Part shown: in pieces, positions 41,290 to 54,114 of the stretch
How the letters are laid out: each line of letters starts with the position of its first letter
Numbering within the stretch: position 1 is the stretch's first letter
Position numbers and translations under genes: made by a program
Notes under the pieces: generated by a model
What the model was told of the DNA's origin: nothing
Seen by the model: only the letters and a program-made list of their open reading frames with translations
The model's database searches: none
NCBI RefSeq assembly: GCF_000420265.1
Contig: NZ_ATUP01000001.1
Span: forward strand, 1,736,001 to 1,800,000
DNA length: 64,000 nt
Origin: Oceanicaulis alexandrii DSM 11625
GTDB taxonomy: Bacteria > Pseudomonadota > Alphaproteobacteria > Caulobacterales > Maricaulaceae
Direction of reading: 5' to 3'

Positions 41290-42276
41290 TTACAGCGAGG
41301 CGACGCCCCATCGCGGGGCATGGAACGCCCAGGCATGCTTGATGATGGTTTGAGCGTCCGAGAAGGCGGGCTCGAAACCAAGAAGCTCGCGCGCCAAGCG
41401 GGTGTCGGAGATCAGCTGCGCGGCGTCTCCCGCCCTGCGGGGAGAAATCGAGTGGGGCACAGGCCTGCCAGTGACGCTTTCGACCGCGTCCAGGATTTGT
41501 TTGACGGAAATGCCTGATCCGGTTCCAAGATTGCAGGCGAAAGACGGTGCTCCATCTCGCAAGCGGTCCAACGCCTTGAGGTGAGCTTGGGCGAGATCCG
41601 TCACGTGGATGTAATCGCGTACGCATGTGCCGTCTGGCGTCTCGTAGTCATCTCCAAACAGGTGCATGGGCCCACCAAGCCCGGCTGCGGCCTTGAGCGC
41701 ATTGGGCACCAGATGGGTCTCGGGGTCATGCTCTTCGCCGATCTCTCCATCCGGGCTCGCGCCAGCCGCGTTGAAATAGCGCAGAGCGGCATAGTTGAGC
41801 GTCCCGATCCCAGAGACATCTTCCAGCATGAGTTCGACCACATGTTTGGTCTGGCCATAGACGTTGACTGGCGTTCGGGGCTCATCCTCGGTGATAGGAA
41901 GCGTTTGGGGCTCGCCATAGACGGCGCAGGTGGATGAGAAGACCAGATGGCGCAGATCCGAGCGCTCCATGGCCTGGAGCAGTGCGATGACCCCGGCGAC
42001 ATTGTTGTCCCAGAACGCCAGCGGCTCGCGCTGGCCTTCGCCAACCTCGATATTCGCGGCGAAGTGCATGACGGCGTCGATGTGCTGGTCTGACATCGCC
42101 TGTGTCACGGCGCTGACATTGCGCACATCTTGCTCGATCAGAGGTCCCCATTTCACCGCGTGGCGGTGACCGCGAGACAAGTTGTCGAGGACGATCGGCG
42201 TATCGCCTCTTTCAGCGAGCGCTTTACAGATGTGCGAACCGATATAGCCCGCGCCGCCAACGACCAATACTCGCAT
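41290..42276 (-). CDS. galE: UDP-glucose 4-epimerase
   Basis: 328 residues from the ATG at 42276. Rossmann motif VVGGAGYIGSHICKALAERG, SSTCAVYG and catalytic YGQTK, C-terminal GDAAQLISDTRLARELLG. It interconverts UDP-glucose and UDP-galactose for polysaccharide synthesis. It stands alone on the minus strand with a long AT-rich region upstream. Confidence 0.94.
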   Translation of the reverse strand: MRVLVVGGAGYIGSHICKALAERGDTPIVLDNLSRGHRHAVKWGPLIEQDVRNVSAVTQAMSDQHIDAVMHFAANIEVGEGQREPLAFWDNNVAGVIALLQAMERSDLRHLVFSSTCAVYGEPQTLPITEDEPRTPVNVYGQTKHVVELMLEDVSGIGTLNYAALRYFNAAGASPDGEIGEEHDPETHLVPNALKAAAGLGGPMHLFGDDYETPDGTCVRDYIHVTDLAQAHLKALDRLRDGAPSFACNLGTGSGISVKQILDAVESVTGRPVPHSISPRRAGDAAQLISDTRLARELLGFEPAFSDAQTIIKHAWAFHAPRWGVASL

Positions 42277-42288
42277 CAAGGCCCCCAT

Positions 42289-42726
42289 TGCTGCGTTGCA
42301 GTGTAAAGAAAGCGAGCGGAAAGCGCGAGCGCAATAGTTGCAAAATCCGCAAGTTGAAGCGCGAGGAATGAGGGTGCGCCGGTCAGTGACGCTGAGCCTG
42401 TCTCTTGCGCAGGGCGGTGAAGCTTCTGCCTTCAGGGCGCTCGCAAAGCCGGCTCACCGGCGACAGAGAAGCGGGCTCTGGGTTAATGCGTCATTATCTA
42501 TAAACACAGGCTAACCACTATACTTGGACGCTGCTGCGGACCTGAGCCGCCCCCGCATTTGACAGAACCTCGTGAGGGCGAGAGAAACTCCATTTTTGAC
42601 AATGATTTAGACGAAGGTTTGGATTTAGATTGTGTTAAGGTTACCCTCAAGTAAAATAAATAAAGCGTTAGGGTAAATTTATATTAAGCAAGTAAATAGT
42701 CCGAATTTTATAAGTTAAAAGGCCAG
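42289..42726. other. Intergenic region, AT-rich, promoters
   Basis: About 440 bases without a plausible gene. The right half is strongly AT-rich (for example GTAAAATAAATAAAG and AATTTTATAAGTTAAAA) and probably holds the promoter of the LapG-like gene, with a TATAAG that could be its -10. No repeat or tRNA seen. Confidence 0.5.
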
Positions 42727-42755
42727 TCTCCTCGTGCGCAGAAGCACGCAGGAGA
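42727..42755 (+). promoter_or_regulatory. Leader hairpin that buries the Shine-Dalgarno of the LapG-like gene
   Basis: TCTCCT pairs with AGGAGA and CGTGC with GCACG around the loop GCAGAA, 11 bp with one bulged C. The 3' arm is the ribosome site itself, 7 bases before the GTG at 42762. Such a fold would block translation until melted or bound, like an RNA thermometer or a protein-controlled leader (inference). Confidence 0.6.
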
Positions 42756-42761
42756 ACAGAC

Positions 42762-43493
42762 GTGTCCACTCAGAATGAGCAACGGTCCCGGCCCACCCTT
42801 TTGTCTCTTCTTGGCCTTGCCCTGGCTGGTCTGTGGTTGACCGCTTGCTCAGCCACCACGCCCGGTACACCCCACCTTGTGGCCCATCAGGTGACGGTGC
42901 CTCCCGTCGGCGCGTTCGCATTCTGTATGGAAAACCGTGAGGCTTGCGGACTTGTCGACGCCGAGCTGGCGACAAACAATAAAGACATGAGCAAGTCTTC
43001 GCCAGCTGTGTTGGAGGAAACGTCAGCAGCGTCTGATGCGTTTTCTGAACAAGAGTATTCTGATGAGCAATTGCTCGCCATGGCGCATGTGGTCAACGCC
43101 GCGATCAATACCGCGATCTCCTATCGAAGCGATGCTCTGACCTGGAATATGGAGGAGCGTTGGGTTCTGCCCATCCGATCGGAAGGCGTCACTTATGGGG
43201 ATTGTGAAGACTTCGCGCTTGAAAAGCGTGCAGCGCTTCTGGAGGCAGGCGCGCCTGCTGACCGGATGCGCATGGCGACAGCCTGGTCACCAGGCACGGG
43301 TTTGCACGCTGTCCTGATCTTGCGGCTTGAAGCGGGAGATTATGTGCTGGACAGCGTGTCGCCTCATATCCTTACGGTGGGGCAAACCCGGTATGAGTGG
43401 CGCGCGCTTCAGACGGGTCCGAGTCTGCTTGAATGGTCCACGGTCTCAAATGATCCGCTGGGGGCTTCTTCCACGTCTTATACAGCAGGCTGA
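42762..43493 (+). CDS. BTLCP/LapG-family cysteine proteinase, lipoprotein
   Basis: 243 residues from a GTG at 42762 with strong AGGAGA. The signal ends LWLTAC (lipobox Cys29). The transglutaminase-like domain has the expected triad: Cys148 in YGDCEDFAL, His182 in LHAVLIL, Asp197 in YVLDSVS. LapG in Pseudomonas is a periplasmic protease that trims adhesins under c-di-GMP control through LapD; neither LapD nor a large adhesin is in view, and LapG is usually not lipidated, so the target here is open. Confidence 0.85.
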   Translation: MSTQNEQRSRPTLLSLLGLALAGLWLTACSATTPGTPHLVAHQVTVPPVGAFAFCMENREACGLVDAELATNNKDMSKSSPAVLEETSAASDAFSEQEYSDEQLLAMAHVVNAAINTAISYRSDALTWNMEERWVLPIRSEGVTYGDCEDFALEKRAALLEAGAPADRMRMATAWSPGTGLHAVLILRLEAGDYVLDSVSPHILTVGQTRYEWRALQTGPSLLEWSTVSNDPLGASSTSYTAG

Positions 43494-43506
43494 CCGCTGA
43501 TGAGGC

Positions 43507-44103
43507 TCAGCGCGTTGAAATGAACTCGACGCCAGCAGCGCTGATGGCTGCGGCTGTCAGAACGCCGGTCTGGTAGGCGCCCGTATCCAGACTGATCCGT
43601 CTGTTATCCTTGCTCGGCTCGGATTGCGGCGTGTGCCCATGCACGATCATGTAGTCGTACTGGCGCGTATCGTTCAGAAACGCATCACGAATCCAGAGAA
43701 ACTCCGCATCAGTCTGCTCGGAAAGCGCTTTGCCAGGGTCTATCCCCGCATGAACAAACAGATACTCGCCGCGTATCGTGAAGCTTTCGAGCGTTTTGTA
43801 AAACTCGAGATGAGCGGGTGGGAGGTGTTCGCGAAACCGCTTGGACGTCGCCGCCCAATGGGCTTCGTCCTTGCTCAGTCCGATATCTTGCACGCCATAG
43901 GATAGAAGGGTTTCAAGGCCGCCATAGGTGCTCCAGGACGAGCCCACTTCAGGGGTGTCGAGAAACTCAAGCAAGGTGGCTTCATGGTTTCCCTTCAGGA
44001 AGGTGCAATCAACGTCCTGAAGGGCCTCTGAATGGATGAGATGCTCCACCACGCCCGCCGATGTTCGAACTTGATAACGCGAACTTCGTTTGGACCTTCT
44101 CAT
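43507..44103 (-). pseudogene. 5'-truncated Ser/Thr-type metallophosphoesterase
   Basis: The frame encodes the C-terminal three quarters of a PrpA-like phosphoesterase: GNHE motif in FLKGNHEATLLEFL, FVHAGIDPGKALSEQ, IVHGHTPQSEPS and the ending SLDTGAYQTG. The first two metal motifs (GDxHG and GDxxDRG) are missing. Family-like sequence begins at SAGVVEHLI, where a GPDSAGVVE-type stretch is expected, and the 13 residues before it are unrelated. The break falls at about 44060-44065. Without the N-terminal ligands the product should be inactive. Confidence 0.8.
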
Positions 44104-44480
44104 ACGAGCTGCAATGGGAGGATACGCGCCTGGATACGGTGCGGTCAGACCTAGAGGTCATTGGCCGCTTGCTCGATGAAGCTGACGTTCCGGTATCCAT
44201 GGATGTCATAGTGGAGGCGTTGGCGGAAGAGGATGAAAGTCAGGGAGTGGTTGCAGATCGTTCCCCTGCCCATCGTGCGCGCAATGCCATAGCCTACCTT
44301 CAGGACCAGGCATTGACCCGTTGTATCAATGTGCGCAGTGCGGATACGGGTTATGTCTGGAACGACCGGGACCTGACGGATACTGAGTGGAAAGCTCGCA
44401 TCGCTGAGCCTCCAGTAACTCGGACAATTCCTGTCATGCGAGTGTTGCCGCCGGAAGCTGTGGTGGTATTGGTAAATTGA
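44061..44480 (+). CDS. Hypothetical protein at the accessory-region edge
   Basis: 139 residues from the ATG at 44061, right at the point where the phosphoesterase homology stops. Protein-like composition (TFSYELQWEDTRLDTVRSDL, VPVSMDVIVEALAEED, then RNAIAYLQDQALTRCINVRS), soluble, no known motif. No clear ribosome site, and its own 5' end may have been cut by the same rearrangement. Function unknown. Confidence 0.45.
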   Translation: MFELDNANFVWTFSYELQWEDTRLDTVRSDLEVIGRLLDEADVPVSMDVIVEALAEEDESQGVVADRSPAHRARNAIAYLQDQALTRCINVRSADTGYVWNDRDLTDTEWKARIAEPPVTRTIPVMRVLPPEAVVVLVN

Positions 44481-44520
44481 GGGTAAGGGCGTGTGGCGCG
44501 CGGCGGAAGCGCCGGCTGCG

Positions 44521-44877
44521 CTAGTCCAAAGCCGTGCTTGGGCTGAGGGGCATATAACCTTCAGCCCTTGCGCCTTCACGCCAGCTCGGGGCAGCCTTCA
44601 GTGAGGCAGCAAGGCGCCAGCGATGCTTTCGCTTGGTGCCAATGTTCCGGACGGTCGGTCGATTGGAGGCGCTTAGCGCATTCATCGACGCCTCGAGCAT
44701 CCGTTTGCTCGGGATCGCCGGAACCACGTGCAAAGATCGGCTTTCCAGATGCTCCAGGAAGAACCGGGCAACGTAAGCCAGATCATCCTCTGACACTTCC
44801 ACCTTGCGATCCTGAAGAGCCTTGCGCAGGGCTTTTACAATCATCCGCCAGTGCGAAATATCGACTTGGTCTGCCAT
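44521..44877 (-). CDS. Hypothetical protein
   Basis: 118 residues from the ATG at 44877. DISHWRMIVKALRKALQDRK and SEDDLAYVARFFLEHLESRS form plausible amphipathic helices; the C-terminal half is basic. No family recognised and no strong ribosome site. It lies inside the region of altered composition. Confidence 0.45.
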   Translation of the reverse strand: MADQVDISHWRMIVKALRKALQDRKVEVSEDDLAYVARFFLEHLESRSLHVVPAIPSKRMLEASMNALSASNRPTVRNIGTKRKHRWRLAASLKAAPSWREGARAEGYMPLSPSTALD

Positions 44878-45320
44878 TGGAAAATGATCTCGCTATTCGT
44901 GTTTTATCAGCCTGGTCCAGACGCAATGAGCTAAAGCGCGAGGTGTGGAAGACCGGGCTTGAGTGAGCCTTCCTTTCATTCAGCCGCCACACCTTTGAAG
45001 TTCTTTCCTAGTGAGGCAGCAACCGTAATGAGCCTGCTGAGAAGAGGGGGGTGAGTCAAGTCAGTTTATTGTAATAATTACCTTTTTCCTTCTGTCAACA
45101 TGGCGTTGACGGAACGAAAGCCTTCTGGAAATGAGCTCGTGGGCCACCATGGAGCGCGCATCTGGCTGCCGCATGGATAGATGTACTTCCGTTTGCGCTT
45201 GATTTTATCAAATGAGGCCGAGAACAATTTGCTTCTCCGGTCACTTCAACGCGCAATCTACTAGGACGAGACCAGCCGGCGCATTGCAGAGCCAACGGCC
45301 GGCCCCCCCCCTTATTTGGT
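44878..45320. other. Gene-poor stretch
   Basis: About 440 bases without a supported gene. It holds the small inverted repeat GTCAAC-N5-GTTGAC (45094-45110), an AT-rich TTATTGTAATAATTACC, and a run of nine C (45303-45311) just ahead of the truncated GIY-YIG frame. Composition differs from the core genes to the left. Confidence 0.45.
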
Positions 45321-45746
45321 GACGCTCAGGAGGAAGAGGATCTCGCGAGCGGGACAATCTATGTCCTGCGCAGCAACTCGACCAATCCAGTGGTCGCAGA
45401 GAACCGTGAGGTGCTCCACAAGATCGGCGTCACGGGCGGCAGCGTGGAGGCGCGTATCGTCGGTGCGGCCAAGGCTGAAACCTACCTCCTCGCAGAGGGC
45501 GAAGTCATGGCGACCTATGAGTTGTTCAACATCAATCGCAAGAAGTTCGAACGCTTGATGCATCGCGTCTTCGAGCCCGCGCGGCTCGAGATTTCCATCC
45601 CGGATCGGTTTGGAAATCCCGTTGAGCCGCGCGAGTGGTTCCTGGTGCCACCTTTTGTGATCGACCAGGCTATTGAGAAGTTCAGGGAAGGGGGCATAGG
45701 CGACTTCGTCTATGACCCCTCAATAGGCATGCTGATTGAGAGATAA
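45321..45746 (+). pseudogene. GIY-YIG nuclease-like gene lacking its 5' end
   Basis: About 140 codons. GTIYVLRSNST is the GIY-YIG-type first strand, followed by HKIGVTGGSVEARI, a helix with FERLMHRVFEPARLEIS, PREWFLV and a C-terminal FVYDPSIGMLIER, as in T5orf172/MUG113-type nuclease domains. The frame is open upstream to a stop at 45213 but has no usual start codon before an internal ATG at 45510 (a GTG at 45390 would cut off the catalytic strand). Full-length relatives usually carry more N-terminal sequence, so I read it as a 5'-deleted remnant. Confidence 0.6.
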
Positions 45747-45798
45747 GGCTATTTGAGCCTATCTCTGTTGCAGTGTCCTTATGCGTGCTGTCCCGGGT

Positions 45799-46386
45799 TT
45801 AGGCGAACTGCTCAGTCTTACCGAACTGGAAAAACCCAAATGCTCGGCCTTTGAGGTCGAAATGCGGATTATGCCATGGGTTAAGCCATTGCTGTGCTTG
45901 GTGCGGATCGATGAAGAGGGGCTCCCAATAACTTACGTGCCCGAGGCCGCCACTTGAGCGAACCAGTTTCGGGTAGAAACAATCTGGTTCTATTGAGCCA
46001 GGTTTAAGATCGTAAGTCCCAGCGATGTAAAAGACATCTCGCCCATTGCCTGGCTTTACTGTCATATAAGGGTCAGAGGGTTTGCGGCTCAAATAGTCAT
46101 AGACGAAACTAGCTATTGGCAGAATACCGCGCTTCTGATTGTGCACATCGATGTCTTTGTTGAGCCGCGGCATTTCGTTAATCCGCGGCAACCCTGCAAC
46201 AGTAAGGAATTTACGGTAAACGCCGCCCGACTCTCTAATTATGATAGGCACCGGCTGGTCTGCGGTGACCTTCCGTCCTGTGATCCACTCAGGTTTCCGG
46301 CGGGGGTTCAGCTTATCCCAGAGGTGGGGTTGTAGCGAAGCGAGGACGTGGCCCTCATCAGGGTATTGGTAGCCTATAATTTTCAT
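45799..46386 (-). CDS. Hypothetical protein, unknown family
   Basis: 195 residues from the ATG at 46386 with a weak AAGAGAGA upstream. Soluble, rich in aromatic residues and prolines (KIIGYQYPDEGHVLASLQPH, SDPYMTVKPGNGRDVFYIAG, SYWEPLFIDPHQAQQWLNPW), suggesting a compact beta-rich fold. No catalytic motif that I know. An inverted repeat CTCTC-TT-GAGAG sits just upstream (46391-46402). It lies between a nuclease remnant and the defence genes. Confidence 0.55.
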   Translation of the reverse strand: MKIIGYQYPDEGHVLASLQPHLWDKLNPRRKPEWITGRKVTADQPVPIIIRESGGVYRKFLTVAGLPRINEMPRLNKDIDVHNQKRGILPIASFVYDYLSRKPSDPYMTVKPGNGRDVFYIAGTYDLKPGSIEPDCFYPKLVRSSGGLGHVSYWEPLFIDPHQAQQWLNPWHNPHFDLKGRAFGFFQFGKTEQFA

Positions 46387-47008
46387 ATTTCTCTCTTGAG
46401 AGCTATGAGCACACAGGATCGATGACCGGTGGTCATAGATTTTGGTGCTAAGATTTTTGGTGGGATTTTGTCAGCATGTGCGATGCGCTGCATTGAAAGC
46501 GAATTGTCATGCTGCAGACGAATTTCCGAAATCTGGGCAGGCTAAACACGGCCTGCTCTTAACTTGAACAGCATCATTAACCACACGTGATGTCGCGCAC
46601 GTGCGATGTGTGCTAAAATCAAGCTAAATTTTCGGAAAATGGGTGCACCCCGTGAACCCATTTTTTTATACTTTAAATTTTCCAAAATTGCAAGATAATT
46701 ATCTTAATAGCTGAATTTTTATCAGCTTTAAAATGACTTTCTCAATCCACATACGGAGCCAGCTAAAGGCGCTCTTCTTTTGGCTGCCCAGCGCGATGGC
46801 TCTTCCGAGACTGCTTTGGCGCAGAAGCGGTCTTAGCCGAGAAAGCCCGATGGCATACAATACCGGTCAGGGGAGATGCTCCGGTTCGTAAGACCCCAGT
46901 CGATCGCCTAGCTATGAAGCGCTTCCCGCTTGGCGTGTGTGGAGCTTCCAAAAATCCAGTCGATCTTCTACGACTCCATGGATGCGTTCAGCTTAGGCAA
47001 AGTCAGCA
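46387..47008. other. AT-rich intergenic region ahead of avs3a
   Basis: About 620 bases with no supported gene. It contains a dense palindromic stretch near 46582-46611 (CACACGTG ... CGCACGTGCG ... GTGTG), an intrinsic terminator at 46639-46667, then 100 very AT-rich bases. The avs3a promoter is presumably in the last 300 bases. Whether a small RNA lies before the terminator is open. Confidence 0.5.
46639..46667 (+). terminator. Intrinsic terminator without an obvious upstream gene
   Basis: ATGGGT-g-CAC, loop CCC, GTG-a-ACCCAT then TTTTTTT. The best U-run is on the plus strand, though no plus-strand gene ends here. It may shield avs3a from read-through or end an unannotated short RNA. Confidence 0.65.
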
Positions 47009-50000
47009 ATGCCAAAGACAGATCTTGTACGACCGAGTCGGGATGGTGATCAGTTTCACTACCTCTGGGCAGCGCGCCGTTGCCTGCGCCTCCTCCATCC
47101 GAAGTCGGGTTTGGTCGCGATTAGCGTCGAAGCAGTATCGCCCAGCGAGCAAGAGGGCGCCCCGGCCACCGAAGCAGGGACAGACGTAATCGATTTGGCG
47201 GAGTACTGGGGAGCCGAAGAACTCGAGAGCGCGACACGAATTCGATACCTGCAGCTCAAGCACTCTACGCTCCACCCTGAACAGCCATGGACCGCGAGCG
47301 GACTGGAGAAAACGATCCGCGGCTTTGCTGAACGATATGCGATGCTGCGTAAGGATTTCTCGCCGGAAGATCTCGCGGCGAAAATAGAATTTCGTTACGT
47401 CACTAATCGTCCGATTGCGAAAGCGATCGCGGAAGCCGTGCTAGACGCCGCTAATGGAAATTCGGCGCGTCATCCGAAAGAGCTCGAAAAGTTGGAGCGC
47501 TTTACAGGCCTGTCTGGATCCGCCCTCAACGCTTTCGCCGGGCTGCTTCACCTCGATGCGGGCCAGCACGGGTATTGGGAACAACGAAATATCCTTCACC
47601 AAGAGGTTCAGGGCTATTTGCCTGGGGGGGACGCGGACGGACCACTCAGAATGAAGGAGTTGGTTACACGCCGCGCAACGTCGGAAGGAGAGGCGAACCC
47701 AACTATCAATAAGATGGATGTTCTCCGAGCTCTAGGAACGGAAGAACACCGATTGTTCCCAGCACCATGTCTTATTGCTTCGCCGCCAGACGAACTTGAA
47801 CGTGCCCAAGAAGCCGAGCTGCTCTCCACAATAATCGAAGCAGCGCACCCGCTAGTTGTCCATGCGGATGCCGGAGTTGGAAAATCCGTTCTTGCGTCTC
47901 GGATTGGTCGGGGGCTTCCCTGCGGGTCGGCTACCGTTTTGTACGACTGTTATGGCAATGGCCTTTATCGCAACATCGCCACGTATCGGCACCGCCACCG
48001 CGACGCACTAGTTCAGATCTCCAACGAACTGGCTGCAGAAGGGTTGTGCCACCCGCTAATACCTAACAGCGCCGCGGATGCCTCTGACTATATGAGAGCA
48101 TTTAACCACCGGATCGGACAGGCTGCCGCTAAGTTGAAACTGAGCGATCCCGCCGCAGTTTTGGCATTGGTGATTGATGCTGCGGACAATGCGCAGATGG
48201 CCGCGGAAGAGATTGGTGAGGCGCGTTCATTTGTCCGAGATCTAATTCGACAGTCTTTTCCGGATAACGTCCGGTTGATTCTTCTCTGTCGTACGCACCG
48301 CCAAGACCTGCTCGATCCGCCGCCTCATACAATTCGGATCGAGTTGCAGCCATTCAGCCGCGAGGAAACAGGATCGCACCTAAGCTCAAAGTTCTCCGAC
48401 TGCAGCCAGCACGACATCGACGAGTTTCATCGTTTGAGTTCGCAAAACCCCCGCGTCCAGGCGCTAGGGCTATCGAAAGGGCTATCCCTTCCGGAAACTC
48501 TTCGCGCGCTTGGCCCAAACCCAACTAGTGTCGCAGAGACTATTAAGCAACTGCTCCAGAATGCCGTCGACAAGTTGTTAGACGAGTGCACAACAGTTGA
48601 GCGCGAGCAGATCAACCGAATTTGTGAGGCGTTGGCTACGTTGAGGCCCTTTGTGCCGATTAGCGTTCTGTCTGAGATGTCGGCGGTGGAGCCGGCCGCG
48701 ATCAGTAGCTTTGTGATCGAGCTAGGCCGTCCACTTTTGCTTTCCGGTGATGCCATCCAGTTTTTCGACGAACCCGCTGAGACTTGGTTCCGGGAACGCT
48801 TTAGACCGTCGCCCGCCGAGCTTGATGCGTTTGTATCTCGTCTAAAGCCGCTAGCCACTGGAAGCGCTTATGCCGCCTCCGTCTTGCCTCAGTTGATGCT
48901 CGAGGCAGGGAACTTTACCGATCTCGTTGATCTCGCCTTAAGTGGTAAGGCATTGCCTGAAACAAGTGATCTGGAGAGGCGTGAGATTGAGCTTCGCCGT
49001 ATTCAGTTCGCCCTAAAAGCGGGGCTTCGTACAAGACGATACGTTGACTCTGCGAAACTTGCTTTGCGAGCTGGCGGGCAGGTCGCTGGCGATGAACGGC
49101 AACGCAATTTGCTGCAAAACAACACTGATTTGGCTTCCGAATTTCTAGATCTAGAACTTATCCAAGAACTTGTTTCACGAGATGTCTTTGGATCGGGGTG
49201 GCTCGGCTCGCACAATGCCTACCAAGCTTCGATCATGTCTGCTCGTCAAGAGCTGCAGGGCGACGCGCGTAGTCGTCTTCGGATGGCACACGAATGGCTT
49301 CAGAACTGGAGCCGTTTGTCGGACGAAGAACGAGAATCGGAACAGGTTTCTCATCAAGACATCGCGGAGCTAACCCTCGCGCATCTGAATGTACACGGAG
49401 CCGCACGTGCCGTTGAAACACTCAATGGTTGGCGCCCGCGTTCGGTTATGTATGACGTCGCCCGCATCGTTGGCCGGCGATTAATTGATCATGGACGTAT
49501 GGATGACATCAAGCAGATGGCCTGCTCGGCGGGCAACAATCTTTGCTTGGTGCTCGGTCTATGTGTGGAACTCAGTGCGGTGCTTAAAACACCAGATGTC
49601 GGCGTTGTTCGCCGCGCTATGCGGCTCGTATCGAGCAAGCGCATTGACCTGTCTGTTAGGGACGCTTGGGATTCAAAGGAGTACGTGCTTGAGGCCGTGA
49701 CCTCGCTCGTAGAAGGGGCCCTGCTCTTGGAGGTCTGTTCTGTCGACGATGGAATCGATGTTCTCACCCGGTACCTACCCAAAACTCCGCCTCGGGGTCT
49801 TTCGCATGGCTATTCAAAATCGCGATCTGTCTTCCTGCGGGCCTATACTTTGAGGTCTGCATTGCGAGGCGAAAAGCTAACTGGGCGCGATCTGGCCCAT
49901 CCGGAATTGCTCAAGGAAATGGATAAAGATCAGCAGCACAGTAAGCCCAGAGAATTGTACGAGTTCGACGAGCATGTTACCGGCCTGCTGCCATTCTACC

Positions 50001-53000
50001 GACTTCGCGCCGCTGGTATTCTGGGTCAGCTTGGCGCCGGCGAGTTGGAAGGCCTCATTGAGGAGGCTAATAAAGCTTCGAACGCTTCCACAGATCGATA
50101 CGCGAGCTATGGGAGCCGCGCCGCTGACGAGAAAGCACTGCTCTGGATGGAAGTCCTGCATCGCGCCGGTGTGTTTGAAGGCGGTGCATGGGAAGCATTT
50201 TTCGCTTGGAAGCGTGGCTTGAAACGAGCCTTGTTTACGCCGACTCTAAACGCATTGTCTCGGTTCTGCGGCAGGACAGCCGAAACTCAGGCAGAGGCGC
50301 TACAGTTCGCTCTAGAGGCTTTCAATCTTCACAACGCAGACCGGTCGGACGCGGATAGCATCGCTGACGGTTACATGGATTGCGCTCGATCAGTGCTGGC
50401 GTTCAGCCCTTTAGATGCCAAGGCTTTTTTTGATGACGCCGTGGCCGTTTCGAGCAGGGTCGGTAATGAAAATCTATCCCGCTGGGCAGCTATCGTTGAC
50501 CTCGCAGATCGGGCCGCCAGCTCCGACCGACCGGTGCCTCAAACAGCCTACAATTTCGCGCGTTGTGCCGAGCTGACTTATCAATATGTGGCCAGAGACA
50601 AGCACTTCGATTGGTCTGCCTCAGTGCGTGCGCTGTCTGGATTGTGTCCTAAGTCAGCGTTGACGATCTCCAGTAGGTGGCGAGACAGGGAGTTTGGATG
50701 GCATAAACGCGTGTTCCCGCTGGTTGTGCAAACGCTTGTCGATCAAGAGTTTCTTCACCCACTCGACGCTGCGCCTTTAATCGCGATTAGTGGTGAGTGG
50801 GATGCCGGTAGGCTGACCGATCAAATCTTAAATGCCTGCCCTGACCGCAAAAATCGAAAGATGTTTGGGCAACACCTGTTCAAGTACATGAAGTTCAGTG
50901 CAGATGGGAGCCAGGCTCTCTTTCGTGCAGCTGAAGCGCACAGTATCGAAATCGACGGACTCGAGAGTATCGCTACTCGAGCCACGCAAAAAGCTGCCAC
51001 TGAAAATGCTCGCGAGCTCGACCGCAACAGCGACTGGAAACTACGTACGAAATCGGCGAAGGAATGGGACGCGATCTTTGAAGATTGCGATGTCTCGAGC
51101 GTCGATGGGATATCGAGGGCTTATAGTCGCTTTCGAGATACAGAGCCGCCATTAGAGCATGATCAGTTCTTCAAAGAATTGCTGGTGCGGGTCTCGATCG
51201 GCAGCGAGCCGGATCTGATTAACGCCATATCTGACGTCGTCGAATTCGAAGCCTATCAGTTTCGTTCGTTTCTAGAGCAAGTTCCCTCAACCTGGAAAGA
51301 AAGACCTGCTACGAAGAAGGCACTAGCTCAAGCTGTGCGAACCAATTTACGTCGCCGGTGTCTCGAAATTGCCCGCAGCCGTTACTATCAAATCCTGCCG
51401 TTTGACTTAGCGTCAGAACTCTCAGGGGCCTCGGAGGCTGAGCTTGCCGCAACAGTTTTGGATGCGGTAGGAGACCTGCCTGATCTGCTCGATAGCGACC
51501 GCCTCTTTTCTCTTATTGGATTGTTGGCACCCAACATTACGGATGACGAGGCTTTATCCGTTCTCGAGTATGGTCTCCAGCTTTTTGACTCGATGCTCGA
51601 AGACACCGACGCGGACGGGTCCTGGGCAAATCACCTGCAGCCGCCAAATTCCGGACTAGCTTCACTGGCAGGCCATCTATGGTCAGTGCTCGCGTCTCCA
51701 GACGCCGTCGAGCGATGGGAGGCAGCGCACGTAGTCCGAGGCATCGTGGAACTCGGCCGCGTCGAACTTTTAGCTGAGCTCGTTAAGCTTGCTGATGGCG
51801 GAAACTCTAATGCGTTCTTTGACGCGACGCTGCCAGCCTATGAACTCCATGCAAAGCAATGGTTTTTGATCGGAATCGCACGAGCTGCAGTTGAGCATCC
51901 GCAGGCGTTAAAGACACACTTTGACACCCTCTTCCTTTGGGCGACTGAGGGCAGCCTGCACATCATGATGCGCGAGTTTGCAAAACGGGCCGCTCTTAGC
52001 CTGGTTAAGCAGGGTGTCGTCAAGGCGACGGGGGACCAGGAGGAGTTTCTGAACAACATAAACTGCTCTCCGTTTGAGATAGAACACGTAGAGGAGTTCG
52101 AACACATAAGACAATCGGAATCAAAAGCAGAGCCCGAGGCGCCGGAGGATCGATACTTCTTCGGCATCGACTTTGGTCCGTATTGGTTGGCACCGTTGGG
52201 TCGCGTTTTCGGGCTCTCCCAGAAGGCTGTTGAAGCGCGCGCGCTCAAGATTATCAGAGAAGAGTTGGGAGCGACTTCCAATGGGCGCTGGGACGAAGAT
52301 CCGCGCGCTAACTCTGGCCTCTATCAGTCCGACCGATCTATGGCGTCCCACGGTTCTTACCCCAGAGTGGACGTGTGGAGCTTTTATCTATCCTACCATG
52401 CGATGATGTTACTCGCCGGCCAGCTTTTGCGGTCGGAGCAGACGATCAGTAATCCCAATTACGGCGAAGAAGATGAATGGGCATCGTGGCTAGAGCGTCA
52501 CGATATCGCGCGCAATGACGGTCGTTGGCTTTCGGATCGCCGTGATACCGAGCCTGAGTTGCTTACGAGCTGGAAAGCGAAAAATCGGGATGACCAAGAA
52601 TATGTTTTGGTCACATCCGCGGATTTTATTGAAGCTCTGTTTACAGGAGAACGCATTGTTGTTGACGGGGACTGGTCTACTGCCAATCCAGAGCGCCAAC
52701 AGAATGTCCACGTTGTAAGCGCATTGGTTGACGCAAGGCACGCTGACGCGCTCACGCGGGCGTTGAGTTCCGCTAAAGACCATATGGATTATTGTCTTCC
52801 AAACGCCGGTTCGGTGCACGAGATCAAGCACGGGGATTTCGGCCTAAGGGGGTGGATATCCTATGAAGGCTATCGCGGTGGCCTCGATGACTTCGACCGG
52901 TGGGCCGGAGGAATCGCCTTTCCTGCTTCCAGGCCAGCCGATGGAATTTGCGGTCGCCTAAAGCTGCGACCAGATGAGGACCAGAGAACGTGGACCGGCC

Positions 53001-53284
53001 CGAATGGCAGCGTTCTATTTTCTTCCGAGGTTTGGGGGCATTTCGACGAAAAGCAACGGAGCGATTTCACCAGTCCTGAACGTGGCCAGCGCTTATTAGC
53101 TTCAAGAGCTGCGATCTGCGAATTACTTAGCGGAACCGAAGAGCAGCTAATTGTTGAAGTTCGGATTGATCGCCACCGGGTCTATCGCCCCTACCAAGCT
53201 AGCGAAGATGAGGAGAAGGAACGTGTCCGAAGCACAAGAAAAATCTTCTTGGTCAACGAGCGTGGCGAAGTCAGAACACACTAG
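47009..53284 (+). CDS. avs3a: Avs3a-like nuclease-STAND ATPase, anti-phage defence
   Basis: 2091 residues. N-terminal Cap4/DUF4297-like DNase (about 1-200): DGDQFHYLWAARRCLRLL, then acidic GTDVIDLAEYWG (Asp59/Asp62) and YLQLKHS (Gln82, Lys84), the D...QxK nuclease core. A STAND P-loop ATPase follows: Walker A VVHADAGVGKSVL (Lys292), Walker B LALVIDAADNA (Asp390), then an Arg-rich LILLCRTHRQD. From about 650 to the end it is helical, repeat-like sensor sequence. In the Avs family the sensor binds a conserved phage protein (terminase for Avs3), which drives tetramerisation and DNA cleavage. Composition is less GC-rich than the flanks, pointing to transfer. No strong ribosome site precedes 47009. 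Confidence 0.82.
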   Translation: MPKTDLVRPSRDGDQFHYLWAARRCLRLLHPKSGLVAISVEAVSPSEQEGAPATEAGTDVIDLAEYWGAEELESATRIRYLQLKHSTLHPEQPWTASGLEKTIRGFAERYAMLRKDFSPEDLAAKIEFRYVTNRPIAKAIAEAVLDAANGNSARHPKELEKLERFTGLSGSALNAFAGLLHLDAGQHGYWEQRNILHQEVQGYLPGGDADGPLRMKELVTRRATSEGEANPTINKMDVLRALGTEEHRLFPAPCLIASPPDELERAQEAELLSTIIEAAHPLVVHADAGVGKSVLASRIGRGLPCGSATVLYDCYGNGLYRNIATYRHRHRDALVQISNELAAEGLCHPLIPNSAADASDYMRAFNHRIGQAAAKLKLSDPAAVLALVIDAADNAQMAAEEIGEARSFVRDLIRQSFPDNVRLILLCRTHRQDLLDPPPHTIRIELQPFSREETGSHLSSKFSDCSQHDIDEFHRLSSQNPRVQALGLSKGLSLPETLRALGPNPTSVAETIKQLLQNAVDKLLDECTTVEREQINRICEALATLRPFVPISVLSEMSAVEPAAISSFVIELGRPLLLSGDAIQFFDEPAETWFRERFRPSPAELDAFVSRLKPLATGSAYAASVLPQLMLEAGNFTDLVDLALSGKALPETSDLERREIELRRIQFALKAGLRTRRYVDSAKLALRAGGQVAGDERQRNLLQNNTDLASEFLDLELIQELVSRDVFGSGWLGSHNAYQASIMSARQELQGDARSRLRMAHEWLQNWSRLSDEERESEQVSHQDIAELTLAHLNVHGAARAVETLNGWRPRSVMYDVARIVGRRLIDHGRMDDIKQMACSAGNNLCLVLGLCVELSAVLKTPDVGVVRRAMRLVSSKRIDLSVRDAWDSKEYVLEAVTSLVEGALLLEVCSVDDGIDVLTRYLPKTPPRGLSHGYSKSRSVFLRAYTLRSALRGEKLTGRDLAHPELLKEMDKDQQHSKPRELYEFDEHVTGLLPFYRLRAAGILGQLGAGELEGLIEEANKASNASTDRYASYGSRAADEKALLWMEVLHRAGVFEGGAWEAFFAWKRGLKRALFTPTLNALSRFCGRTAETQAEALQFALEAFNLHNADRSDADSIADGYMDCARSVLAFSPLDAKAFFDDAVAVSSRVGNENLSRWAAIVDLADRAASSDRPVPQTAYNFARCAELTYQYVARDKHFDWSASVRALSGLCPKSALTISSRWRDREFGWHKRVFPLVVQTLVDQEFLHPLDAAPLIAISGEWDAGRLTDQILNACPDRKNRKMFGQHLFKYMKFSADGSQALFRAAEAHSIEIDGLESIATRATQKAATENARELDRNSDWKLRTKSAKEWDAIFEDCDVSSVDGISRAYSRFRDTEPPLEHDQFFKELLVRVSIGSEPDLINAISDVVEFEAYQFRSFLEQVPSTWKERPATKKALAQAVRTNLRRRCLEIARSRYYQILPFDLASELSGASEAELAATVLDAVGDLPDLLDSDRLFSLIGLLAPNITDDEALSVLEYGLQLFDSMLEDTDADGSWANHLQPPNSGLASLAGHLWSVLASPDAVERWEAAHVVRGIVELGRVELLAELVKLADGGNSNAFFDATLPAYELHAKQWFLIGIARAAVEHPQALKTHFDTLFLWATEGSLHIMMREFAKRAALSLVKQGVVKATGDQEEFLNNINCSPFEIEHVEEFEHIRQSESKAEPEAPEDRYFFGIDFGPYWLAPLGRVFGLSQKAVEARALKIIREELGATSNGRWDEDPRANSGLYQSDRSMASHGSYPRVDVWSFYLSYHAMMLLAGQLLRSEQTISNPNYGEEDEWASWLERHDIARNDGRWLSDRRDTEPELLTSWKAKNRDDQEYVLVTSADFIEALFTGERIVVDGDWSTANPERQQNVHVVSALVDARHADALTRALSSAKDHMDYCLPNAGSVHEIKHGDFGLRGWISYEGYRGGLDDFDRWAGGIAFPASRPADGICGRLKLRPDEDQRTWTGPNGSVLFSSEVWGHFDEKQRSDFTSPERGQRLLASRAAICELLSGTEEQLIVEVRIDRHRVYRPYQASEDEEKERVRSTRKIFLVNERGEVRTH

Positions 53285-53942
53285 CACCGTAATGGAACTA
53301 GGTAAGCGCTTAGTGTGCGAACTCGACCTTGAGGACTCGACTGACACGCTTAGCCGGTGGATGGCTCATCATATCGCGGAGCTGATAACGCGGTCTGAGC
53401 AGGCTGGAGGCTCCAATCGCGCGCTCAATCACGAGTGCTATGAGGCAATTCTTCAGCTGTGGAGGCATCGACACGAACTTCCGGACGGCAAACGTCCATT
53501 TGAGGAAGTAGAGCCGGTCGCACGAGCGATCGCGAGCCTCGACCCAGAATCCACTTTTCCACGGTACTTCCAACGACCTCACGGTCGGCAGGAAAAAGAA
53601 GACCAGAGCCCGAGTGAACAATGGTTGGAGGTCGCTGAGGGGATAGACTATTCAGCGCGAATTCTGATCAGCGAGTGCTTCAAGTTGGCGGCGCAATCAG
53701 CTCCAGACGCCGCAAAACTCATCGAGATTGCCAACGCCGTTGATGGGCCGCCGGATGCAATGCGAGTCGTGGTCGAGTTTGTGTCTTCAAACAGTGGAAT
53801 TGATGAAGACGTTTCCCTGAACAGCGAGGAATTAGAACGTTTAGAAAAACGTTTGCAGCGCCTAGAAGCTTTCACATCGTTTTCGGATACGTTGGCTACG
53901 CACTACAAAATAAGGCTCGCCGCGTTGTCCGGAGAATCTTGA
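53223..53942 (+). CDS. avs3b: Avs3b-like small partner protein
   Basis: 239 residues from a GTG at 53223, chosen for its strong AGGAGAAGGA; it overlaps avs3a by 62 bases. An ATG at 53292 would start it just after avs3a. Helical and acidic: WMAHHIAELITRSEQAG, CYEAILQLWRHRHELPDG, PFEEVEPVARAIASLDPE, ending with a charged heptad-like ERLEKRLQRLEAFTSF. No catalytic motif. Some AVAST type 3 loci carry a second gene of this size and place; I assign it mainly by that context, with its role unknown. Confidence 0.62.
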   Translation: MSEAQEKSSWSTSVAKSEHTSTVMELGKRLVCELDLEDSTDTLSRWMAHHIAELITRSEQAGGSNRALNHECYEAILQLWRHRHELPDGKRPFEEVEPVARAIASLDPESTFPRYFQRPHGRQEKEDQSPSEQWLEVAEGIDYSARILISECFKLAAQSAPDAAKLIEIANAVDGPPDAMRVVVEFVSSNSGIDEDVSLNSEELERLEKRLQRLEAFTSFSDTLATHYKIRLAALSGES

Positions 53943-54114
53943 ACACTGGAGATGGTATGTAATGTGAGCGTCTCCGCTAGCGATCCAGGCTTCTTACCAG
54001 CCGATCAAGCGAGCTTCAGAGTACTACCGGGCGAAATCGCATCTCCCTTTTTGTCCGCTTTAGGGATGAACCGGCAGTAGGCTTCATCAGCTTAGGTAAT
54101 GATGAAGTGATGCT
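53943..54114. other. Right edge of the accessory region
   Basis: 172 bases between avs3b and the efflux operon. A plus-strand frame of 42 codons (53952-54080) encodes NVSVSASDPGFLPADQASF and LPGEIASPFLSALGMNRQ, but its start lacks a proper ribosome site; the opposite strand is also open for about 28 codons. It could be a remnant of a mobile element. I cannot identify it. Confidence 0.3.

Follow-up and report, generated by a model that had tools for sequence, protein, structure and literature searches.

The window, a stretch of 64,000 nucleotides from Oceanicaulis alexandrii DSM 11625, lies on the main contig of a 3.0-Mb genome and carries two overlapping genes, avs3a and avs3b, on the forward strand. 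No 16S sequence was found in this assembly. An earlier note, made from the letters and their open reading frames, had described a nuclease-STAND ATPase and a small partner here. The reading frames lie where this note had placed them, at 47009-53284 (2091 aa) and, from a GTG at 53223, up to position 53942 (239 aa). The features of the locus are as follows.

44061-44480, forward strand: 3' remnant of a large serine recombinase (last 139 codons), the left arm of the island; intact (681 aa) in the same-genus genome G007
46638-46668, forward strand: terminator-like hairpin with a T-run, left of the cassette, found by repeat search and by eye and absent from the terminator scan
46838-54053, no strand: cargo cassette, the interval of the slot not common to G007
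47009-53284, forward strand: avs3a, from ATG, 2091 aa, with nuclease, STAND NTPase and large helical sensor
47009-47758, forward strand: N-terminal PD-(D/E)xK (Cap4/DUF4297-type) nuclease domain, residues about 1-250, with E41, D62, Q82 and K84, from column conservation in 84 relatives
47192-47260, forward strand: codons of the catalytic D...QxK (D62-...-Q82-L-K84)
47759-48808, forward strand: STAND/NACHT NTPase, residues about 251-600
47882-47884, forward strand: codon of the Walker A lysine K292 (AGVGKS)
48176-48178, forward strand: codon of the Walker B D390 (LVIDAADN)
48809-53281, forward strand: C-terminal region, residues about 601-2091, within the full-length alignment to 8dgc_A; putative sensor by analogy with SeAvs3
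53210-53219, forward strand: Shine-Dalgarno-like GAGGAGAAGG for avs3b, within avs3a, from the sequence and a Shine-Dalgarno scan
53223-53942, forward strand: avs3b, all-helical partner, 239 aa from GTG

The assignment to AVAST type 3 made in the earlier note was supported by profile searches. The large protein matched PADLOC Avs3a with 2752 bits over residues 1-2090, and Avs3a was the sole family that it matched, end to end, in PADLOC as well as in NCBIfam. Avs3b was likewise the only match of the small protein in both collections (PADLOC PDLC02168, 223 bits; NCBIfam NF041817, 203.7 bits, above the cut-off of 200). A better match to an unrelated STAND family was looked for in PADLOC and NCBIfam and none was found, and neither of the two proteins matched the Avs1, Avs2, Avs4 or Avs5 profiles there at E values up to 1. 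A frame of 2091 codons with one profile spanning residues 1 to 2090 is not a product of chance. Further, the structure of SeAvs3 (PDB 8DGC) could be aligned to residues 5-2090 of Avs3a (E = 0). The score with NCBIfam NF041816 (Avs3a) was 2710 bits, against an equivalog cut-off of 2800. When this profile was calibrated on relatives, scores of 3076, 2969, 2848 and 2016 bits were obtained; the NCBI-named Avs3a of Janthinobacterium accounts for the 2848 bits and an evident Avs3a of Acinetobacter reached only 2016 bits. With relatives spanning 2016-3076 bits, the score under 2800 probably reflects divergence within one family, and the cut-off appears to mark closeness and not system type. The pair is an intact, divergent Avs3 system with both genes full-length family matches. 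Avs3 has already been described, including a solved structure, and the window pair is a further member and not a new type.

A tree of 84 Avs3a proteins places the window copy in a well-supported set together with those from Ferrovibrio, Bradyrhizobium, Paraburkholderia, Alcanivorax, Pelodictyon, Mycoplana and Rhizobium, and the mixture of phyla in this set fits horizontal spread. Within the class, Avs3 is rare and patchy (4 of 385 genomes), and no phage-borne copy was found in 50,697 phage records. One IMG/VR contig classed as viral (L129, 44.5 kb) carries avs3ab very near to the Franconibacter and Pantoea copies, so that carriage by a prophage or satellite is possible. On the Klebsiella variicola plasmid pKPN692_2 (L010, 10.4 kb), avs3ab accounts for about two thirds of a very small replicon. 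A genome of the same family as the host (L003 and L006, G105:C46) has an Avs3a match distributed over two frames, probably a broken copy.

Conservation of single residues was analyzed in 84 Avs3a relatives, all longer than 1900 aa. The D...QxK nuclease and the intact Walker motifs read from the sequence in the earlier note were both borne out: Q82 is found in 84 of 84 relatives, D62 in 83 and K84 in 82, and G289, G291, K292, D313, D390-N394 (the DAADN core), R428, R431, P481 and E588 are invariant. Two copies depart from this pattern: one on a Shewanella baltica plasmid, whose nuclease is degenerate, and one from Rhodobacteraceae, which has K84R. Pfam NACHT matched residues 281-463 with 25.8 bits, just under its cut-off of 26.7. 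The window protein keeps every one of these conserved nuclease and NTPase residues, and because all catalytic and Walker positions are retained, enzymatic activity is expected. The fold type of the nuclease domain is taken from published work (PMC11291478).

SeAvs3 of Salmonella enterica resembles the window Avs3a in length, in the order nuclease-STAND-sensor and in the catalytic and Walker residues, and its close relatives carry an Avs3b-family partner, as the window does. Unlike SeAvs3, the window copy is chromosomal, in a non-enterobacterial host with a gene-transfer-agent-type cluster, and its sensor has diverged. In SeAvs3, binding of a viral protein by the sensor leads to tetramerisation, with the nuclease domains pairing as dimers (PMC11291478), and the DNA of phage and host is cleaved by Avs1-4 when they sense the large terminase, the portal or another phage protein (PMC12931631). 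By analogy, the C-terminal helical sensor of the window Avs3a would bind a conserved part of the packaging machinery of tailed phages, most likely the large terminase subunit. The ATP-bound STAND domains would then form a tetramer; once paired, the N-terminal nuclease domains would cleave the DNA of phage and host alike, and the phage would be stopped by the infected cell. Protection against phages and a response to terminase would likewise be expected from what is known of the family. For the window operon we consider Avs3 identity together with this overall mechanism highly probable. Avs1, Avs2, Avs4 and Avs5 have the STAND receptor logic and phage-protein sensing in common with it; the Avs5 effector is Sir2, and some Avs1 systems combine a protease with a pro-nuclease (PMC12931631, PMC12799240). 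HerA-DUF4297 and the CBASS Cap4 nucleases contain a related PD-(D/E)xK domain type (PMC11291478), but their sensor and ATPase differ and they are not the same system.

Between the window Avs3a and the nearest annotated plasmid copy (Klebsiella) the identity is only about 45%, and this value together with the score below the equivalog cut-off means that the ligand range of the window protein could differ from that of SeAvs3. The sensor might have drifted to another phage ligand, such as the portal or a different structural protein, which would leave an Avs-like receptor that does not sense terminase. The sensor is the fastest-evolving part of the protein (mean distance mostly 0.6-0.74, compared with 0.49 for the NTPase), and the score lies just under the cut-off; portal or other phage proteins are sensed by other Avs (PMC12931631). 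However, the alignment with SeAvs3 runs end to end with no domain replaced, and close relatives score as Avs3a. We regard such a drifted sensor as unlikely, and terminase sensing is the preferred reading.

The two genes stand out from their surroundings by composition. GC3 is 0.55-0.56 in avs3a and avs3b, compared with 0.72-0.79 in the neighbours GDH, galE, RND and sulP, and the genes around avs3ab are housekeeping or metal-efflux genes. The flanks on both sides (window 44057-46739 and from 54053 on) have matches of about 90% in the same-genus genome G007, whose slot (L045:11725-14813) holds a Type II restriction-modification pair, composed of a C5 cytosine methyltransferase and a GHKL-ATPase restriction enzyme. 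Avs3a was present in none of 14 same-genus genomes. One defence cassette has here been cleanly swapped for another, and avs3ab is a foreign-composition cassette, horizontally acquired as cargo in this defence-exchange slot. The cassette lies between two copies of a 10-bp direct repeat, TCAGCTTAGG, at 46988 and 54087; the chance of such a match by accident is estimated at roughly 7%. On the left arm, the front of the recombinase gene is replaced in the window by a segment running from galE to a phosphoesterase gene.

Several other elements were noticed in the same region. The 2.8-kb segment with galE, a BTLCP peptidase and the phosphoesterase occurs twice, at window 41306-44061 and at G000:C1:1818369-1821107; the copies are 85% identical, in the same orientation and about 41 kb apart, and they bracket the Avs3 and metal-efflux region. 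Just past the right end of the window, on the far side of the island and adjoining the downstream copy of this segment, lies a Tn7-like set (L046:8959-15232) with TniQ, a TniB-like ATPase, a Mu-type transposase apparently in two frames and a possible TnsA-like gene. A gene for a small GIY-YIG-type nuclease (MUG113/T5orf172) is located beside the cassette at window 45390-45746.

The truncated recombinase in the flanking island, together with the rare and patchy occurrence of Avs3 in the class, could also suggest that the window system is a decaying acquisition, silent or non-functional. Against this, both frames are intact, all catalytic and Walker residues are kept and avs3b has a good Shine-Dalgarno site. 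Decay is improbable.

The overlapping 239-residue frame with its strong ribosome site, as read in the earlier note, was recovered. avs3a and avs3b overlap by 62 nt, and GAGGAGAAGG is located 3-7 nt upstream of the GTG at 53223, with AGGAG at a distance of 7 nt. An alternative in-frame ATG is present at 53208 (-76 nt), at the position where relatives most often start (-73/-76 nt), so that the start of Avs3b may be either 53208 or GTG 53223. The arrangement was followed in relatives, 80 from species-representative genomes as well as plasmid, viral and other loci. The avs3b frame opens upstream of the avs3a stop in 90 of 90 analysable pairs, the relative frame is +1 in 89 of these 90, and the start codon lies within avs3a in all 87 pairs scanned for it. 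Wherever the sequence extends far enough beyond avs3a, avs3b follows, and the three loci that lack it are cut by contig ends. Avs3b is therefore effectively an obligate partner of Avs3a among the checkable relatives. A fusion of the two proteins by frameshifting was considered and rejected: it would need a +1 shift, and since an internal start codon exists in every scanned pair, coupled initiation is the simpler explanation. avs3b is probably translationally coupled to avs3a.

The helical nature predicted for the small partner was also seen in its AlphaFold2 model, which is all-helical with eight helices (pLDDT 80, pTM 0.67). A comparison of this predicted fold with the PDB and with viral models yielded no clear match: the best Foldseek hits had E values of 2.5 (PDB) and 0.55 (viral models), and the best VIA-align hit reached Z 5.7 over 69 residues (rmsd 3.9), which helical bundles commonly reach without being related. 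A search of the PDB chains with the Avs3b profile gave no credible match either, with only adrenodoxin at E about 0.65, a chance hit. As no PDB chain matches Avs3b, the protein is absent from the solved SeAvs3 complex. No mention of Avs3b was found in the literature collection searched. Within the family (PDLC02168, NF041817), the window copy is alike in its overlapping position 3' of avs3a and shows nothing notably different. Distances between Avs3b proteins agree most closely with those of the last 300 residues of Avs3a (partial r +0.27 to +0.29) and least with those of its nuclease domain (-0.39), a mirror-tree signal confounded by physical linkage, as adjacent DNA would track alike.

Copies of Avs3b without Avs3a, or next to one with a degenerate nuclease, were also found. 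Qipengyuania has a full-length, intact Avs3b frame without Avs3a, where a weak match of 57 aa to the Avs3a C-terminus remains (E 0.018). An orphan Avs3b in Fibrella keeps a truncated C-terminal part of Avs3a, which is located next to an IS3. Both look like remnants of deleted pairs, and the idea of orphan Avs3b as an independent system was dropped. On the Shewanella baltica plasmid pSBAL17502 (L018), the nuclease motif of Avs3a is lost or replaced, while the NTPase, the sensor and Avs3b are kept. The retention of Avs3b beside this degenerate nuclease and its presence alone in Qipengyuania count against Avs3b being simply an antidote to the nuclease, and also against its being toxic.

Two roles of Avs3b can be weighed on these data. 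Avs3b could act as a toxin-control partner, which holds Avs3a off by binding until terminase displaces it. Strict linkage with overlapping translation, as in this pair, is a common arrangement for stoichiometric inhibitors, and the tolerance of an intact Avs3b without Avs3a would also fit such a role. However, the partner is retained where the nuclease motif is lost, and SeAvs3 was solved without Avs3b, so Avs3a can be made alone, at least in that preparation. We consider control of this kind possible, at rather low probability. Alternatively, Avs3b may be a non-catalytic structural or regulatory partner of the C-terminal half of Avs3a, and neither the receptor of the trigger, nor an effector, nor a nuclease antidote. 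It would then serve Avs3a stability, off-state control or ligand range. This is the role that we favour, at about an even chance.

A terminase that could serve as a ligand is encoded by the host itself. On the same chromosome, outside the window, a gene-transfer-agent-type cluster extends from TerL to NlpC/P60 (G000:C1:2539053-2548300; L131:6054-15301), with a large terminase (Terminase_6N/6C; L131:6054-7397), portal, prohead protease, capsid, connector, tail tube, tape measure, DUF2460, baseplate hub and NlpC/P60 genes in this order. Gene order and content point to a gene transfer agent and not to a prophage. A large tail gene directly following NlpC/P60 on the same strand was not seen, and the cluster may thus be incomplete. 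A homologue of its terminase is present in 9 of 17 Avs3-bearing alphaproteobacterial genomes, compared with 81 of 289 genomes of the class (Fisher p about 0.05 towards enrichment); given the taxonomic bias of the sample, the comparison reads only as no avoidance. Mutual avoidance of Avs3 and gene-transfer-agent terminases, considered as a possibility, was accordingly not seen. Either the host terminase escapes recognition, or it is made only in cells that are dying anyway, or Avs3 limits its production. A bolder proposal would make the large terminase of the cluster a ligand of Avs3, or one that is only narrowly avoided, with the receptor policing or restricting gene transfer agent production and Avs3b setting the threshold. 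We rate this proposal as a long shot, and it seems similarly improbable that Avs3 acts on the host's own terminase, which is its strong version.

Two aspects make the window case unusual, namely a partner found in every checkable relative and a host with a virus-derived packaging motor of its own. Avs3b is strictly retained although the solved SeAvs3 lacks it, which makes its role a sharp and cheap question. According to a 2026 paper (PMC13236601), it is poorly understood if immune systems respond to gene transfer agents or are avoided by them. A chromosome with a terminase sensor as well as a terminase of the gene-transfer-agent type offers a direct natural test of that question.
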